Source of the DNA: an uncultured Candidatus Saccharibacteria bacterium
GTDB lineage: Bacteria; Patescibacteriota; Saccharimonadia; Saccharimonadales; UBA4665
Length of the DNA stretch: 5,015 bases
Assembly (NCBI GenBank): GCA_937988795.1
Contig: CALKHY010000071.1
Span: 1-5,015 of the forward strand
Direction: 5' to 3'
Numbering within the stretch: the stretch's first letter is position 1; every line of letters starts with the position of its first letter. The position numbers and the translations under genes were made by a program. Positions 1-5,015 of the stretch are shown here, piece after piece. The notes under the pieces are model-generated. The model was not told the origin of the DNA. It saw only the letters and a list, made by a program, of their open reading frames with translations, and searched no databases.

Positions 1-804
1 AAGGTGTAAAAGCGCCGCCGCGCCGCTCGGAGCGCGCAGGCCTGCGAGCACCAGGTGGCCGGTGGCTGCAGCCTGGACAGCCAGGTTGGTGGTCTGGCCG
101 TCAGACAGGTTGTCGATCAGGATGATGTTCGCATCTTGTTTAAGTGCTGCCTCAAGTCCTTCGAATACGGTCATGCCGCCAGCCAAGTATGTGTGGTTGA
201 CCCCGGCCATCCGATACTTCACGCCGCGTTCGATAGTGGTTACATTGAGCAGCGGGCTGTTGACATCCTTGAGCAGGCTAAAGAGCGTGGCGGCAACGCC
301 GCTGTGGCGTGGACCGGTCACTACCACCAGGCCGTGCGGGCTTGTTAGAACATTTCTGAGTGCCTTGAGCCCGTCGCCCCAGAATCCAAGTTCGGCAAGG
401 TCTTTCGGGTTGCCGCGCTCTTGGCTAAGGTGTAGTACGGCTTTTTCGCCGCCGTATACCGGCATGGTCGACAGGTGTACGTCAACGGTGCCGTCCTTGA
501 GCTTTACCGTATAGTCGCCTTCCTGCGGCATTTGTGTATCCTGGACGTGAAGTCCGGCGAGTGTCTTGAGTTGGGCAAGCAGCGGTCCGAGCGACGCCCG
601 GGGCAACTTGTGCACGCCGCGGAGCACGCCGTCAATCCGGTAGCGCACCAGCACAAAACGTTCATGCGGCTCGATGTGGATATCGGTCGCACCGCGCCGC
701 ACGCCATGCTCGACAAGCATCTCCAGGGTTTCCACCACCTGCTTGTCGGTGAACTTGTCGGCATTGCCGAGCAGTTTCCCCATCAAGGAATTCTTCGCGT
801 CCAT
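1..804 (-). CDS. GspE/PilB-family secretion/pilus ATPase paralogue, probable pseudo-ATPase (3' end cut by window)
   Basis: The frame is open from ATG at 804-802 to the window edge, giving 268 residues with the C-terminus missing. Family features seen: ATDIHIEPHE (38-48) and RYRIDGVL (74-81) of the N2 domain; LAGL (83-86) and MPQEGDY (91-97); STMPVYGGEKAVLHL (112-126); GLVVVTGP (158-165); and ATGHLVLAGL (247-256). Family members are hexameric cytoplasmic motors for type II secretion or type IV pili. Catalytic motifs are abnormal. Walker A is GPRHSGVA (164-171) instead of GPTGSGKT. The Asp box is TIERGVKY (190-197) instead of TIEDPVEY. The GEIRD segment is DNLSD (231-235). The His box has Arg257 where His is usual. 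Only about 35 residues precede the N2 motif, so the usual N1/MshEN domain is absent. I infer a non-hydrolysing partner or regulator of an active PilB. ATG at 804 is the only plausible start: the frame is closed by a stop at 856-858, with no ATG, GTG or TTG between. It diverges from recA. Confidence 0.88.
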   Translation of the reverse strand, partial: MDAKNSLMGKLLGNADKFTDKQVVETLEMLVEHGVRRGATDIHIEPHERFVLVRYRIDGVLRGVHKLPRASLGPLLAQLKTLAGLHVQDTQMPQEGDYTVKLKDGTVDVHLSTMPVYGGEKAVLHLSQERGNPKDLAELGFWGDGLKALRNVLTSPHGLVVVTGPRHSGVAATLFSLLKDVNSPLLNVTTIERGVKYRMAGVNHTYLAGGMTVFEGLEAALKQDANIILIDNLSDGQTTNLAVQAAATGHLVLAGLRAPSGAAALLHL

Positions 805-813
805 TTCTGCTTC

Positions 814-819
814 ATTATA
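814..819 (-). promoter_or_regulatory. -10 box for the PilB-like gene, near-leaderless
   Basis: The - strand reads TATAAT, a perfect sigma-70-type -10 hexamer, with 9 bases between it and the ATG at 804. A start site at the usual distance would fall 2-4 bases before the start codon, so the mRNA would have almost no leader. No Shine-Dalgarno sequence precedes the ATG, and no convincing -35 hexamer was seen 16-18 bases upstream. Confidence 0.55.
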
Positions 820-879
820 TAACGAAAACCATAAGCGTCGTGCATTTTTGTAGCCTTAACCTTGGCGAAATTGCTGACA

Positions 880-906
880 TTGCCCGCATTGCAAAACTGT
901 TATACT
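880..906 (+). promoter_or_regulatory. recA promoter with extended -10
   Basis: TATACT at 901-906 is preceded by TG one base upstream (898-899), forming an extended -10 element (TGTTATACT). A partial -35, TTGCCC at 880-885, lies 15 bases upstream, which is short; extended -10 promoters need little -35 contact. Transcription would start near 913, giving a leader of about 36 bases before recA. No SOS operator is evident. The promoter is divergent from the one at 814-819. Confidence 0.55.
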
Positions 907-909
907 ATA

Positions 910-930
910 AGCGAAAGTCTGAGAGACGCT
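910..930 (+). promoter_or_regulatory. small inverted repeat in the recA leader
   Basis: GTCT (917-920), loop GAG, AGAC (924-927) form a perfect 4-bp stem. It can be extended by AGC (910-912) with GCT (928-930) across a GAAA bulge. It lies just downstream of the predicted transcription start and 8 bases before the ribosome binding site. It could influence recA translation or mRNA stability, but so short a stem could arise by chance. Confidence 0.2.
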
Positions 931-938
931 GTTAGATT

Positions 939-944
939 GGAGGG
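939..944 (+). promoter_or_regulatory. strong ribosome binding site that sets the recA start
   Basis: GGAGGG ends 4 bases before the ATG at 949. It is the strongest well-placed Shine-Dalgarno sequence in the window. It favours ATG 949 over the in-frame TTG at 862, whose coding extension would run through the predicted recA promoter. Confidence 0.85.
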
Positions 945-948
945 TTAT

Positions 949-1998
<1,050 letters not shown>

Positions 1999-2008
1999 AA
2001 TTGTAAGC

Positions 2009-2587
2009 ATGACCAAACGCGCCACCATTTTGCACGGCACCGGCAATAAGCTCACCGACCATTGGCTACCGTGGGCTAAGCAATTGTTTGAGGGCGCCAG
2101 CTACGAAGTCTTCATGCCGATCTTGCCGGACAATATGTATCCAGACAAAGATAAATACGACAAGTTTCTGCGCGAATCCGGTTGGGACTTTGCAGACAAC
2201 GTGATCGTCGGCTACTCATCCGGCGCAACAACCATCTTGAACTTGCTGATGAGCGACTGGTTCCCGCACGCTAGAGCTGTTGCCCTGGTTGGCGCCTTTC
2301 TCAACGAAAAGCTGGTTAAGTCGGCGTCGTGGTATATTCCCGGCCAATTCGATAATCTGTTCCTGCCAGAGTACAAGCCGGAAGTGATCAAGCAAAAGGC
2401 GGACAGATTTTACTTTATCCACGGCAGCGACGACCCATACTGCGACATAGATGACGCAAAACAGCTCTGCCAGGCATTGGACGGTACGTTTACAACTATC
2501 CCAAACGGGGGACATTTAGGTATTTTAAGCAAAATGACGGCCCTGCCCGCCATGGAACAAGTACTGCGCAGGGGCGGCATCATATGA
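2009..2587 (+). CDS. RBBP9/YdeN-type alpha/beta hydrolase
   Basis: This 192-aa protein has the serine-hydrolase layout of the RBBP9/YdeN (DUF1749-like) group. The first strand ends in an ILHGTG loop (7-12). The nucleophile elbow is GYSSGA (68-73) with Ser70 in the GxSxG pattern. An acidic loop HGSDDP (138-143) supplies the probable catalytic Asp (141 or 142), and GGH (167-169) supplies His169, completing a Ser-Asp-His triad in the right order. No signal peptide or membrane segment is visible, so it is probably cytoplasmic. Substrate is not predictable; family members are mostly orphan esterase-like enzymes. It starts 10 bases after recA and has no ribosome binding site; TAAAAT sits 7 bases before the ATG, so it may be read from recA transcripts or made as a leaderless mRNA. 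The fold is very likely; the biological role is unknown. Confidence 0.85.
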   Translation: MTKRATILHGTGNKLTDHWLPWAKQLFEGASYEVFMPILPDNMYPDKDKYDKFLRESGWDFADNVIVGYSSGATTILNLLMSDWFPHARAVALVGAFLNEKLVKSASWYIPGQFDNLFLPEYKPEVIKQKADRFYFIHGSDDPYCDIDDAKQLCQALDGTFTTIPNGGHLGILSKMTALPAMEQVLRRGGII

Positions 2588-2652
2588 ACACCTCGAACAA
2601 CCCTTCCGAGACAAGGAAGAAAAAATAAAAAACGCGTGTGGAGAAAGTAAAG

Positions 2653-2658
2653 TAAAAT
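2653..2658 (+). promoter_or_regulatory. possible -10 box, leaderless start of the S51-like gene
   Basis: TAAAAT lies 6 bases before the ATG at 2665, so a normal start site coincides with the A of the ATG. The nearest GGAG (2640-2643) is 21 bases upstream, too far to act as a ribosome binding site. No -35 hexamer is seen. The 77-base gap (2588-2664) is AT-rich and otherwise holds only a weak 5-bp hairpin at 2603-2619. Confidence 0.45.
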
Positions 2659-2664
2659 AGCAAT

Positions 2665-3252
2665 ATGAAGCGATTAATTTTGATGGGTGGCCGGCCATGG
2701 TTTGGCGAGGATGGCGGCAAAAGGTTTGTCGATACCCTGTTCCGTTATTATCCCAAAGAGGTAAAATTGGCATTTTGCATTTTTGCACAGCCCGAAAGCG
2801 ACTGGGAAGAAACGCGCGCCGTAAATATGAACATGTTTGATAAGTTTAAGGGTGGGCGGCATGTTGAATGTCAAACCATGACCGATGAGAATTTTGCTGA
2901 GATCTCGGCTTGGTCTGACATTATTTACATTCCGGGCGGCAGCACCGACACGCTTGCCGCCAGGCTGCGTAAACACGGCAACATTGCTGCGTTGTGGGAC
3001 GGGAAAATGATTGCCGGTTCTAGTGCAGGTGCCAACTTCATGTGTGAAGGTTTCATTTATCTGGATAAGAAGACGTATAACCGCGGCCTTGGCTGGGTAA
3101 AAGCTACAAGCATTCCGCACTGGCGGTCGAACTACAACAATTACACCGATGAGGATTGGGACTCGCTGGAGCAGCAGGCGCTCTCCGAAGCGCCCGGCAC
3201 CCCGGTGCTCTGCATCCCGGAAAGTGAATTCGTGGAGTTTACGGTAGCGTGA
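2665..3252 (+). CDS. Peptidase S51 (dipeptidase E)-like protein
   Basis: This 195-aa protein matches the class I glutamine amidotransferase-like fold of peptidase S51 (PepE, cyanophycinase). It has an N-terminal strand LILMGGR (4-10), the core strand and glycine turn IYIPGGSTDTL (87-97), and the nucleophile elbow AGSSAGAN (117-124) with Ser120 as probable nucleophile. His152 in IPHWR (150-154) is the probable triad histidine. PepE of enteric bacteria (229 aa) cleaves Asp-X dipeptides; specificity cannot be assigned here. The protein is shorter than PepE and ends soon after the conserved-looking PESEFVEF segment (185-192), so the C-terminus may be trimmed. No signal peptide is seen, consistent with a cytoplasmic enzyme. 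Its TGA overlaps the next start (GTGA), so translation is probably coupled to the Nudix gene. It may also have its own leaderless promoter at 2653-2658. Confidence 0.87.
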   Translation: MKRLILMGGRPWFGEDGGKRFVDTLFRYYPKEVKLAFCIFAQPESDWEETRAVNMNMFDKFKGGRHVECQTMTDENFAEISAWSDIIYIPGGSTDTLAARLRKHGNIAALWDGKMIAGSSAGANFMCEGFIYLDKKTYNRGLGWVKATSIPHWRSNYNNYTDEDWDSLEQQALSEAPGTPVLCIPESEFVEFTVA

Positions 3253-3794
3253 GCGCGCCAGATACGCAGTCGGTTACAGAGTATCCGCCTGTCGTGATCG
3301 TAAACGAGAACGACGAAGTTGTTGGCGAGGCAGCGCTTGCTGATGCGCGCGCCACGGGCCTTATTTACCGGGTTGTATTCGTGGTCGCAAGAGACTCGGC
3401 CGGCCGGATTTTGCTGCAAAAACGTTCGCAGCACATGCGATTGTACCCGGGCTGCTGGGATGTGTCGGCTGCCGGGCATGTTGACGGCGGCCGTACCTAC
3501 GAGCAGGCGGCTGCACTGGAACTGGCCGAAGAGCTGGGCGTTCACGACGCTGAGCTAAAAGAGATCGCGCACTATTATGCCGATGATCCGCTGTGGGGCG
3601 GCGTCCAGGCTCGCCGTTTCGCAAAAATTTTCGAAATTAAACTGGACGCGCTACCGACTCGCCTCGGGCGCGCAGAGGTGAGCAAGGTGCGCTGGTTTAC
3701 CAAAGAGGAGTTGGCCGAACTGGCGGCGCGGGAACCCGACAAGATGGCCGAGGGTTTGCGCTACGCCGCGCCTTACCTGCTGAACATGCCATGA
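3249..3794 (+). CDS. Nudix hydrolase, YfcD/isopentenyl-diphosphate isomerase-like
   Basis: This 181-aa protein opens with the IVNENDEVVGEA element (17-28) typical of the YfcD/IPP-isomerase-like Nudix branch. It continues with LLQKRS (55-60) and LYPGCWDVSAAGHV (65-78), then a Nudix box at 76-98. The box keeps Gly76 and the metal-binding helix ELAEELGV (91-98; Glu91, Glu94, Glu95). Two usual positions differ: Arg82 replaces the first Glu and Leu90 replaces the Arg of the REUxEE core. The C-terminal motif VSKVRWFTKEEL (144-155) is also typical. Nudix enzymes hydrolyse nucleoside-diphosphate-linked or other pyrophosphate compounds; the substrate is unknown, and mevalonate-pathway isomerase activity is possible but unsupported. 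The start is GTG at 3249, overlapping the upstream TGA, with a GGAG (3234-3237) 11 bases before it; the next ATG would remove conserved sequence. Its own TGA overlaps the recX ATG. Confidence 0.93.
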   Translation: MSAPDTQSVTEYPPVVIVNENDEVVGEAALADARATGLIYRVVFVVARDSAGRILLQKRSQHMRLYPGCWDVSAAGHVDGGRTYEQAAALELAEELGVHDAELKEIAHYYADDPLWGGVQARRFAKIFEIKLDALPTRLGRAEVSKVRWFTKEELAELAAREPDKMAEGLRYAAPYLLNMP

Positions 3795-4387
3795 AGATAA
3801 CCGCAATTACACAACAGGTCAAACGCACTGACCGATACTCGATCTTTGTTGACGGCAAGTATGCGTTTTCGCTGAGCGAGTCCGGCTTGCTTGCCAGTGG
3901 GCTGGCCGTAGGCCAGGAGTTAACGCCGGCTGAGCTTAAGAAGCTCAAAAAAGATGCCGGAATGGACAAAGCGTACTACGACGCGCTTCGCTATGTAGCA
4001 ATGCGGGCGCGCAGCGAATGGGAAATCGAGACGTACCTGCAGCGCAAAGAAGTTGATAAGGACGCGGCCAATGAAATCATCCGGCGGCTCAAGGAGGCTG
4101 GGCTGCTCAGCGATCTGGACTTTGCCCGCGCGTGGGTGTCAAACCGCCGTACGCTCAAGAGTGTGAGCAAACAGCGCCTAAGGCAGGAACTTTTGCAAAA
4201 ACGCGTGCCAGAGGACATTATCGACCAGGTGCTGGCCGAGGACGAAACAGATGAACGCGTGGCGCTTAGAGAGCTCGTTCAAAAGAAACGTCATCGTTAC
4301 CCCGACAAGCAAAAACTCATGGCCTACCTTGCTCGCCAGGGTTTCCGCTACGACGACATCAGGTCGGTTCTCGACGAGGAGTTGTAA
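3791..4387 (+). CDS. recX: Regulatory protein RecX
   Basis: The 198-aa product is RecX, a small all-helical protein that binds RecA filaments and modulates their assembly and ATPase activity. An N-terminal beta segment, YSIFVDGKYAFSLSE (16-30), is followed by family-typical LTPAEL (44-49). Then come tandem three-helix RecX repeats: ALRYVAMRARSEWEIETYL (65-83), a second unit around LKEAGLLSDLDFARAWVSNR (100-119), and a third from about 158 to 197 containing LMAYLARQGFRYDDI (176-190). Length and order are normal for the longer RecX type. The ATG overlaps the Nudix stop (ATGA), and there is no ribosome binding site, so translation is probably coupled. recX often sits directly after recA; here three unrelated small enzymes separate them, but the arrangement still allows co-expression. 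Confidence 0.95.
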   Translation: MKITAITQQVKRTDRYSIFVDGKYAFSLSESGLLASGLAVGQELTPAELKKLKKDAGMDKAYYDALRYVAMRARSEWEIETYLQRKEVDKDAANEIIRRLKEAGLLSDLDFARAWVSNRRTLKSVSKQRLRQELLQKRVPEDIIDQVLAEDETDERVALRELVQKKRHRYPDKQKLMAYLARQGFRYDDIRSVLDEEL

Positions 4388-4396
4388 ATTAAGCAC

Positions 4397-4425
4397 TTGC
4401 TTGATGTTTTGCCGGCCGGTATGAT
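4397..4425 (+). promoter_or_regulatory. promoter after recX, upstream of the first small gene
   Basis: TTGCTT (4397-4402) and TATGAT (4420-4425, one mismatch from TATAAT) are 17 bases apart. The -10 lies 9 bases before the GTG at 4435, implying a leader of only a few bases, as for the PilB-like gene. Two palindromes flank or overlap the -10: CCGGCCGG at 4412-4419 and ATGATCAT at 4421-4428. They could be operator sites. No terminator separates this promoter from recX. Confidence 0.45.
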
Positions 4426-4434
4426 CATCAGTAA

Positions 4435-4722
4435 GTGGAAAAAAGTAATAATTTTTTAATATTTGGCGGGCTGACACCAGATAAATGGAGGGAAATGGTT
4501 AGGCCCCAGCTGCCGGTTTATCCGCCGGACGAAGGACAGCGGCGACAACAGATCATAAATAACACATTAGATGAAATGCGCCGGGATGGGACGTTGGCAG
4601 AATTGTGGCAAAGATATTACCAAAGGACCGGTGCTGCTGCAGTGAGCAACCAGGTTGCTCCACCTGACCTCTCCCAAGGGGCGGGGCTGCGGCCCGACGC
4701 GCCCGAGGTTCCTTTGCGGTAG
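4435..4722 (+). CDS. Small protein of unknown function, paralogous to the next gene
   Basis: I do not recognise this 95-residue product. It starts with a short hydrophobic beta-like stretch NFLIFGG (6-12). A probable amphipathic helix (about 35-60) ends in DGTLAELW (51-58). The tail after residue 65 is rich in Pro, Ala and Gly and probably disordered. There is no signal peptide, membrane segment or cysteine. The GTG at 4435 is chosen because TATGAT lies 9 bases upstream and because the N-terminal stretch is echoed in the downstream gene. The alternative ATG at 4495 has a GGAGGG only 2 bases away, too close for a normal ribosome binding site. The frame, start context and similarity to the gene at 4800 support it as real; nothing indicates its function. 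Confidence 0.6.
   Translation: MEKSNNFLIFGGLTPDKWREMVRPQLPVYPPDEGQRRQQIINNTLDEMRRDGTLAELWQRYYQRTGAAAVSNQVAPPDLSQGAGLRPDAPEVPLR
4644..4660. repeat. perfect 7-bp inverted repeat inside the small gene
   Basis: GAGCAAC (4644-4650) and GTTGCTC (4654-4660) are separated by CAG. The stem can be extended by two pairs (4642-4643 with 4662-4663) across a bulged C at 4661. It lies in the low-complexity tail region of the coding sequence. No T-run follows on the + strand, so it is not an intrinsic terminator. It may be an RNA hairpin, an operator-like dyad, or chance. Confidence 0.35.
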
Positions 4723-4785
4723 TGTCAAATCTATCCTTGTCGTAAGGCTGTTGATAAGCTTACAGATCTGGCCTGCTGTCCGGGT

Positions 4786-4791
4786 TAGTAT
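4786..4791 (+). promoter_or_regulatory. weak -10 box before the second small gene
   Basis: TAGTAT (four of six matches to TATAAT) lies 8 bases before the ATG at 4800, repeating the close -10-to-start spacing seen elsewhere in the window. No -35 is seen at a normal distance; TTGATA at 4751-4756 is too far. The 77-base gap 4723-4799 shows nothing else. Confidence 0.25.
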
Positions 4792-4799
4792 CGTTTGCT

Positions 4800-5015
4800 A
4801 TGGGTGCTAATTTGCATGTATGCTTCGAGGGCGGCGTTGTTGATCTGGGCCACAGCCAGCTGGCGGCCGAGGTGCTTACGCGGGACACAACGTTGCCTGA
4901 CCGTTTGGGCAGGGAACTGATTGCCCGAATGCTCCTGCAAGAGGCCGCAGACGATGGCGTGCTAAAGGAATTGTGGGTACATGCCGGACAGGTTGCCCTC
5001 ATGCAGCAGTACCCG
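4800..5015 (+). CDS. Small protein of unknown function, paralogue of the preceding gene (3' end cut by window)
   Basis: The frame is open from ATG 4800 to the window edge, giving 72 codons so far, and is closed upstream by a stop at 4755-4757 with no other start between. The product begins with a beta-like stretch LHVCFEGGVV (5-14). A probable helix (about 36-60) ends in DDGVLKELW (51-59). Aligned without gaps, residues 38-59 match residues 37-58 of the preceding product at 10 of 22 positions (R, I, L, E, D, G, L, E, L, W), and both share the Gly-Gly after the first strand. It has no signal peptide or membrane segment. I do not recognise the family, and the rest of the protein lies outside the window. 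It is probably a real gene because of the paralogy and the open frame. Confidence 0.6.
   Translation, partial: MGANLHVCFEGGVVDLGHSQLAAEVLTRDTTLPDRLGRELIARMLLQEAADDGVLKELWVHAGQVALMQQYP

Follow-up and report, generated by a model that had tools for sequence, protein, structure and literature searches.

Why would a bacterium with a small genome keep, over a long time, the gene of a pilus motor that has lost its ATP site? The question is raised by a stretch of 5,015 nucleotides from an uncultured Candidatus Saccharibacteria bacterium (assembly GCA_937988795.1, contig CALKHY010000071.1, positions 1 to 5,015), called the window below. Its first 804 bases (1..804, minus strand) hold the first 268 codons of a degenerate homologue of PilB, the motor protein of the type IV pilus (T4P), the 3′ end of the gene lying beyond the window. 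Saccharibacteria are tiny bacteria, and their cultivated members live on other microbes. The gene, named here psPilB for pseudo-PilB, would on the best reading encode a pseudo-ATPase of long standing that is maintained by purifying selection. Its product would serve as a scaffold or regulator working independently of nucleotides, with a predicted place at the base of the T4P machine that the cell still has; we give this reading close to an even chance (about 0.48).

Reading frame, family and motifs of psPilB

The psPilB frame starts with an ATG and reaches the edge of the window without a stop, over the 268 codons already counted in the original prediction. The window fragment matches the Pfam family T2SSE (PF00437) with 168.5 bits (cut-off 24.9), and the NCBIfam GspE/PilB models cover its core, all of them under their cut-offs (best 205.7 bits against an equivalog cut-off of 630.25). 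Identity with PilT or PilU was ruled out by the score of pilT_fam, 72.8 bits against 205.7 for GspE, and identity with FlaH/ArlH, of the RecA/KaiC type, by the match to PF00437 and the lack of any to RecA/KaiC models. The closest full-length relative among the matches listed, P0001, has 438 amino acids and is identical at 266 of the 268 positions shared with the window; its frame continues unbroken past the window edge into a PilB-like C-terminus with zinc-binding cysteines, and it matches PF00437 with 241.2 bits (cut-off 24.9) over residues 20-434, i.e., the N2 and C-terminal domains. The existence of P0001 also ruled out a recent pseudogene confined to one contig. No MshEN (N1) domain was matched in P0001 or in the gene of genome G165, while this domain was found in all four active PilB proteins tested.

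The degraded motifs read in the translation exactly as the original prediction had given them, all on the minus strand. Walker A is GPRHSGVA (292..315, residues 164-171), with Val at the Lys position; the Asp box is TIERGVKY (214..237, residues 190-197), where Lys replaces the Mg-binding Glu at residue 196; the GE.RD segment is DNLSD (100..114, residues 231-235), with Asn for the catalytic Glu and the pore-loop Asp retained at residue 235; and the His box TGHLVLAGLRA (31..63, residues 248-258) keeps its first His and has Arg for the second. Both Arg-finger positions carry His, the first at 475..477 (residue 110) and the second at 430..432 (residue 125). By alignment to Geobacter PilB, residues 110, 125, 196, 232 and 235 of psPilB correspond to R271, R286, E357, E395 and D398, for which the available text of PMC5424180 describes roles in subunit-interface contacts, Mg binding, catalysis and the pore. 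Compared with the Geobacter metallireducens PilB core (5TSG/5TSH; same source, as far as available) and with Thermus PilF (5OIU), psPilB has the equivalents of the Walker Lys, E357, E395 and R286 replaced. The structural positions that had been listed as intact (IHIEP, RYRIDG, VTGP and TGHLVL) are indeed kept, as is the whole N2-domain segment DIHIEPHERFVLVRYRIDG (628..684, minus strand, residues 41-59). Points that go beyond the original prediction are the two His residues at the Arg fingers, the Lys at the Mg site, the missing MshEN domain, the origin from a T4P-2 operon and the parallel character of the losses.

A predicted structure model is consistent with the PilB fold. This predicted fold, with a zinc site and without an ATP site, may best be read as that of a nucleotide-free scaffold or regulator, probably acting on T4P-1, the machine in which PilC stands beside PilB1 and PilT.

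Catalytic residues in relatives and in active PilB2

The 120 relatives compared here are predicted proteins, the best 120 of 723 found among 7999 scored candidates, and the active comparison set consists of 51 PilB2 sequences. Most relatives are named Saccharimonadales or Patescibacteria, with a few metagenome-assembled genomes labelled Nitrososphaera, Bacillota or Pristimantibacillus. These names, together with the matching gene pair on the Saccharibacteria chromosome CP025011.1, suggest that the window is of saccharibacterial origin. The Walker Lys, present in all 51 active proteins, is found in only two relatives (P0118 and P0120, both stem rows) and in none of the 119 rows of the crown clade, to which the window belongs. 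P0116 and the G205 protein have Arg at this position, and in the crown it is occupied by V, I, L, S, R, T, G, A or M. At residue 196, invariably Glu in the active set, Lys stands in 99/120 relatives (101/119 crown rows) and Glu in 3/120. The catalytic Glu, intact in 51/51 active sequences, remains in 4/120, and 102/120 have Asp or Asn. The second Arg finger is His in 119/120 and Arg in a single relative, and the first is Arg in 66/120 and replaced in 54/120 (His in 41); both are Arg in every active PilB2. Thus, the clade-wide conservation that had been proposed as a check is seen for the loss of the Walker Lys, gone in 118/120, and not for the exchange of the second His of the His box to Arg, which occurs in only 11/120 (His in 107/120; the first His of the box in 119/120). 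Since other relatives carry the same changes, sequencing error was ruled out, as had been expected.

Other positions are strongly kept. The N2 residues D41, H43, E45, P46, R54, R56 and G59 are each present in 120/120 relatives, as are the first Glu of the Asp box and the four Cys of the zinc-binding tetracysteine motif, which lies outside the window and was seen in P0001; the D398 equivalent is retained in 111/120, and 112/120 are 430-444 amino acids long. In the crown clade, 23 positions that are invariant in active PilB2 are now fixed to another residue (e.g., R125H, N65H, G167H, Y197H, Q206Y and M411F), 92 are released and 80 are kept. Some of these newly fixed residues (R125H, G167H, Y197H) fall in former ATP-site motifs, and together with the prevalent Lys at residue 196 they could point to a pocket remodelled for a ligand of another kind (an acidic partner, for instance, or a nucleotide other than ATP), with psPilB acting as a sensor. 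However, the many residues found where the Walker Lys used to be give little indication of a single tight site, and we regard such a sensor as very unlikely.

Several of these relatives carry the source annotation "type IV pilus assembly protein PilB", yet lack the ATP site, which calls for caution with such annotations.

Origin at the recA site

The window stops inside psPilB, and the context of pilin and operon genes is drawn from relatives. Two overlapping samples were used, one of 147 genomes from the class (recA found in 142) and one of 93 from the family (recA found in 89); only some of the loci were fetched, the choice falling partly on those with no strong match to PilB2, and genomes may be incomplete, so that the counts below are not prevalences. 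One neighborhood comparison, which included G209 and G141, used six reference proteins. Many genomes of the class have a T4P-2 operon (PilB2, PilC2, pilin, PilM and PilN) divergent from recA-recX, with ruvA-ruvB beyond the operon in several of them. Other genomes have at the recA site PilB and one pilin alone.

The two arrangements differ sharply in their catalytic residues. An intact 15-residue catalytic string was present in all 24 fetched loci where a recA-adjacent PilB2 has PilC alongside, and in none of the 20 complete recA-adjacent solo PilBs, those without PilC. Among the latter, the Walker Lys persists in 10, the catalytic Glu in three (G001, G016 and G208) and R286 in one (G016). No match to PilC, PilM or PilN was found in any of the 20 complete solo loci, which are 8.4-20 kb long; the contig-cut loci L062, L171, L178 and L180 were left out of this set, and L136, L106 and L080, which are not at recA, were not counted. 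As a check on bias, the 52 loci with the best matches to a psPilB profile (L008-L059) were inspected: in 50, an intact PilB2 is accompanied by PilC (judged by pattern in 49 and by alignment in L053), and the remaining two are psPilB (L037 and L038).

Going by gene order in the relatives, psPilB is what remains of a T4P-2 operon beside recA, in the company of a single pilin. Because intact T4P-2 operons share the same recA neighborhood, the adjacency of psPilB to recA was probably inherited, and a link to RecA function from gene position was rejected.

Phylogeny and order of loss

In a tree of 62 rows, which took in 37 of the 120 relatives, all 41 psPilB rows fell on one branch (support 100/99) grouped with the PilB2 of the T4P-2 operon; support for its precise point of attachment among the active PilB2 proteins was weak. 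A second tree of 57 rows contained 11 of the relatives and was built without L085 (its genome G001 entered as L001), L106, L167, L180 and some active loci. Here, 31 solo rows including the clade of the window formed one group (100/100), with G136 and G032 outside it; G158 and G183, labelled solo, are contig-cut and were placed with active PilB2. Eight branches of this tree are long and their placement is unsure.

Within the solo clade, the pore-loop Arg of GE.RD is missing from 31/31 rows and the second Arg finger from 30/31, while the catalytic Glu and the Walker Lys were lost in some lines and retained in others. The 57-row tree requires one change for the pore-loop Arg, three for R286, four for the Walker Lys, and seven each for the Mg-binding Glu and the catalytic Glu. 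Given these counts, a single old solo lineage most likely shed its catalytic residues one by one, with parallel losses in different lines, and the pore-loop Arg may have been lost first.

The lone pilin and the remaining pilus machine

With a pilin hidden Markov model, a type IV pilin was located beside the solo PilB in 19 of the 20 loci; in intact operons, the same model also detects the pilin that comes first behind PilC2. The residues of prepilin processing and assembly, Gly(-1) and Glu(5), are present in all 19 aligned pilins, 17 of which stand beside a solo PilB. Weaker pilin matches beside recA, without an intervening PilB, were also seen in G120, G119 and G115.

PilB and PilC genes were inventoried in 19 of the 20 solo genomes (G149 was left out) and in six others. 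The canonical pilB that had been expected elsewhere is present in the genomes of relatives: a PF00437 gene coding for about 560-625 amino acids and scoring above 390 bits occurs in 24 of the 25, and G001 has three other PilB-type genes and PilT, with intact P-loops. A single PilC gene, beside PilB1 and PilT, was found in 11 of the 19 solo genomes (G009, G016, G046, G070, G071, G113, G148, G150, G151, G167 and G208) and also in G115. Two or three PilC genes occur in G001, G136, G154, G155, G202 and G205; G165 has the PilC of T4P-2 only; and in G169 none was found, perhaps because this genome is incomplete. A second PilB of 526-625 amino acids stands beside PilC in G155, G165, G202, G205 and G209, with intact motifs in the three checked (G165, G205 and G209). 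In G001, a third PilB-PilC pair with pilins (L067, 8089-10867) is distinct from both T4P-1 and T4P-2, and G205 and G209 seem to have pairs of this kind as well.

Since no machine but T4P-1 has a PilC in 11 of the 19 genomes, T4P-1 may be the one that makes the lone pilin into filaments. The history we propose is that PilC2 and the other operon genes would have been lost, leaving PilB2 and the first pilin at the recA site, and that psPilB, held permanently without nucleotide, would modulate T4P-1 or the way in which T4P-1 uses the lone pilin. It would do so docked on PilC1 or stacked on the ring of PilB1, not as a working ring subunit. In Myxococcus, signalling has been proposed for the substrate-free state of PilB (PMC11656802, in its available part). 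In a tentative and distinctly less probable variant, psPilB would be a dedicated T4P pseudo-motor, a nucleotide-free PilB ring from a second operon without its platform, bringing the orphan pilin to the surviving pilus, and the catalytic residues would have gone in parallel since ATP turnover was no longer needed.

Mixed rings with an active PilB, as originally suggested, are not supported in that form. According to this idea, psPilB would join PilB1 or PilB2 hexamers and slow or cap them, which would be in keeping with the retained N2 residues, zinc site and D398 equivalent, with the modelled PilB fold, with the large PF00437 gene of nearly all inventoried genomes, and with the two-hybrid interactions among PilT, PilU and PilB reported in the available text of PMC6762196. 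Simple mixed rings are nevertheless less likely because the pseudo-subunit, with His at R286 in all but one relative, lacks the trans Arg finger used by the site of its active neighbor. Furthermore, where T4P-1 alone has a PilC, the adjacent motor is of the distant PilB1 type (the G001 copy is 33% identical to P0001), and the authors of PMC6762196, in that same part, argue from their data against PilT-PilU hetero-hexamers. We therefore consider mixed rings improbable.

Selection, and the case for slow decay

Between the window and G001 or G209, psPilB differs at 0.18-0.21 of second codon positions, 0.59-0.60 of third positions and about 0.66 of four-fold sites. This pattern fits purifying selection, and, together with the recurrent substitutions and the canonical pilB genes in the genomes of relatives, it favors the earlier view of retention without catalytic residues over recent decay. 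In NG86 estimates for these pairs, the nonsynonymous distance (dN) is 0.29-0.34 and the synonymous distance (dS) near 3, i.e., saturated; dN of RecA in the same pairs is 0.10-0.11. Relaxed selection, which had been named as a refuting result, was not found for these pairs, but the saturation of dS leaves no firm dN/dS value. No internal stops occur in the psPilB genes of G001, G205, G209 and G165. In G155 (contig C11, 183652-184893), a solo PilB match is listed with one in-frame TAA, whereas the Pfam search listed none.

Several observations weigh against a retained scaffold or regulator. Its expression, its phenotype and its binding to PilC1, PilB1 or the pilin are all predictions from sequence. 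The argument that T4P-1 alone could use the pilin fails in 8 of the 19 genomes, which have at least two PilC genes, only that of T4P-2, or none found. The pilin persists between recA and ruvB with PilB gone in L175 and L176 (genomes G170 and G171), so that PilB is dispensable there, and G176 has neither gene at the site. In G032, a solo PilB of 507 amino acids beside a pilin and ruvB (L080, 5036-6559), on a branch of its own next to G003, has its catalytic residues intact. Also, the more distant comparisons with the window are less clear (G205, dN 0.50 and dS 2.2; G165, dN 0.65 and dS 1.6), and ten pairs of solo PilBs outside the crown have dN of 0.37-0.88 against 0.03-0.26 for recA. For comparison, six pairs of active PilB have dN of 0.14-0.28 (recA 0.05-0.17 in the five pairs that have it). 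Part of the solo clade may thus be eroding.

The main rival is therefore slow decay, in which PilB2 had no further use once PilC2 and the stator genes had gone and has been eroding, as yet without stops, while selection keeps the pilin. The latter seems to be the more strongly kept partner, since G170 and G171 retain it alone and the only solo locus without a pilin, that of G148, has the longest PilB branch (3.17 in the 57-row tree). Slow decay would also account for the different residues lost in different lines (seven changes at the catalytic Glu, four at the Walker Lys) and for the faster evolution of solo PilBs outside the crown than of active ones. It has to contend with a crown of 119 rows sharing 23 newly fixed positions, with the few second-position changes at distances where four-fold sites are saturated, and with the uniform lengths and the invariant zinc Cys and several N2 residues of the relatives, although broken copies could be absent from a list made of predicted proteins. 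We hold slow decay to be a serious rival, strongest outside the crown clade of the window, and doubtful as an account of the whole.

Relation to known systems

By description, psPilB belongs to the same family as the T4P-2 pilB2 of Nanosynbacter lyticus TM7x, where locus two comprises pilB2 and recAX (PMC12206443, available text). The same portion of that paper gives PilB and PilT of TM7x ATP-binding and hydrolysis sites, and places a mostly complete machine at locus two. Unlike TM7x pilB2 as described, psPilB has lost the ATP site and the MshEN domain, and in relatives the locus no longer contains PilC, PilM or PilN. PilU, a retraction ATPase and paralogue within the superfamily, works only beside the principal motor PilT; it retains Walker A and Walker B, whereas psPilB has neither and finds its best matches in PilB and GspE (for PilU, PMC6762196 as available). 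In function, a possible analogue is FlaH/ArlH of the archaellum, a non-hydrolysing partner with an ATPase fold of a related motor: Sulfolobus FlaH binds ATP without hydrolysing it and modulates the PilB-like motor FlaI, according to the accessible part of PMC6011876. However, FlaH is of the RecA superfamily and still binds ATP (same part of that source), while psPilB is a PilB homologue without ATP-binding residues. No degenerate PilB in Saccharibacteria and no T4P pseudo-ATPase was found among the titles and abstract openings of part of the matching open-licence literature.

The genomes searched measure 0.4-2.2 million bases. The long retention, in such small genomes, of a motor without an ATP site therefore suggests that the PilB scaffold serves some purpose other than driving the pilus. 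In a motor family that has been studied well, psPilB sets structure apart from catalysis, the kept positions being those that are important without ATP. If psPilB does control T4P-1, this would be relevant to the attachment of these bacteria to their hosts.

Other features of the window

A gap of 144 bases (805..948) separates psPilB from the divergent recA gene (949..1998, plus strand; TIGR02012, 565.9 bits), the anchor of the ancestral T4P-2 site, and the same divergent pair is found in the Saccharibacteria chromosome CP025011.1 (G001). Elsewhere, two recA matches contain one in-frame stop each (TAG in G148, contig C8; TAA in G177, contig C3), which may be errors or real breaks. The recX gene (3791..4387, plus strand) is recognized by RecX models with at best 140.1 bits, under the cut-off of 240, and is separated from recA by three genes (2009-3794): a serine hydrolase gene, an S51 peptidase-like gene and a NUDIX gene. 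A NUDIX gene also lies between recA and recX in G209 and G141. Beyond recX, an open reading frame of 95 amino acids (4435-4722) has no Pfam or NCBIfam match.
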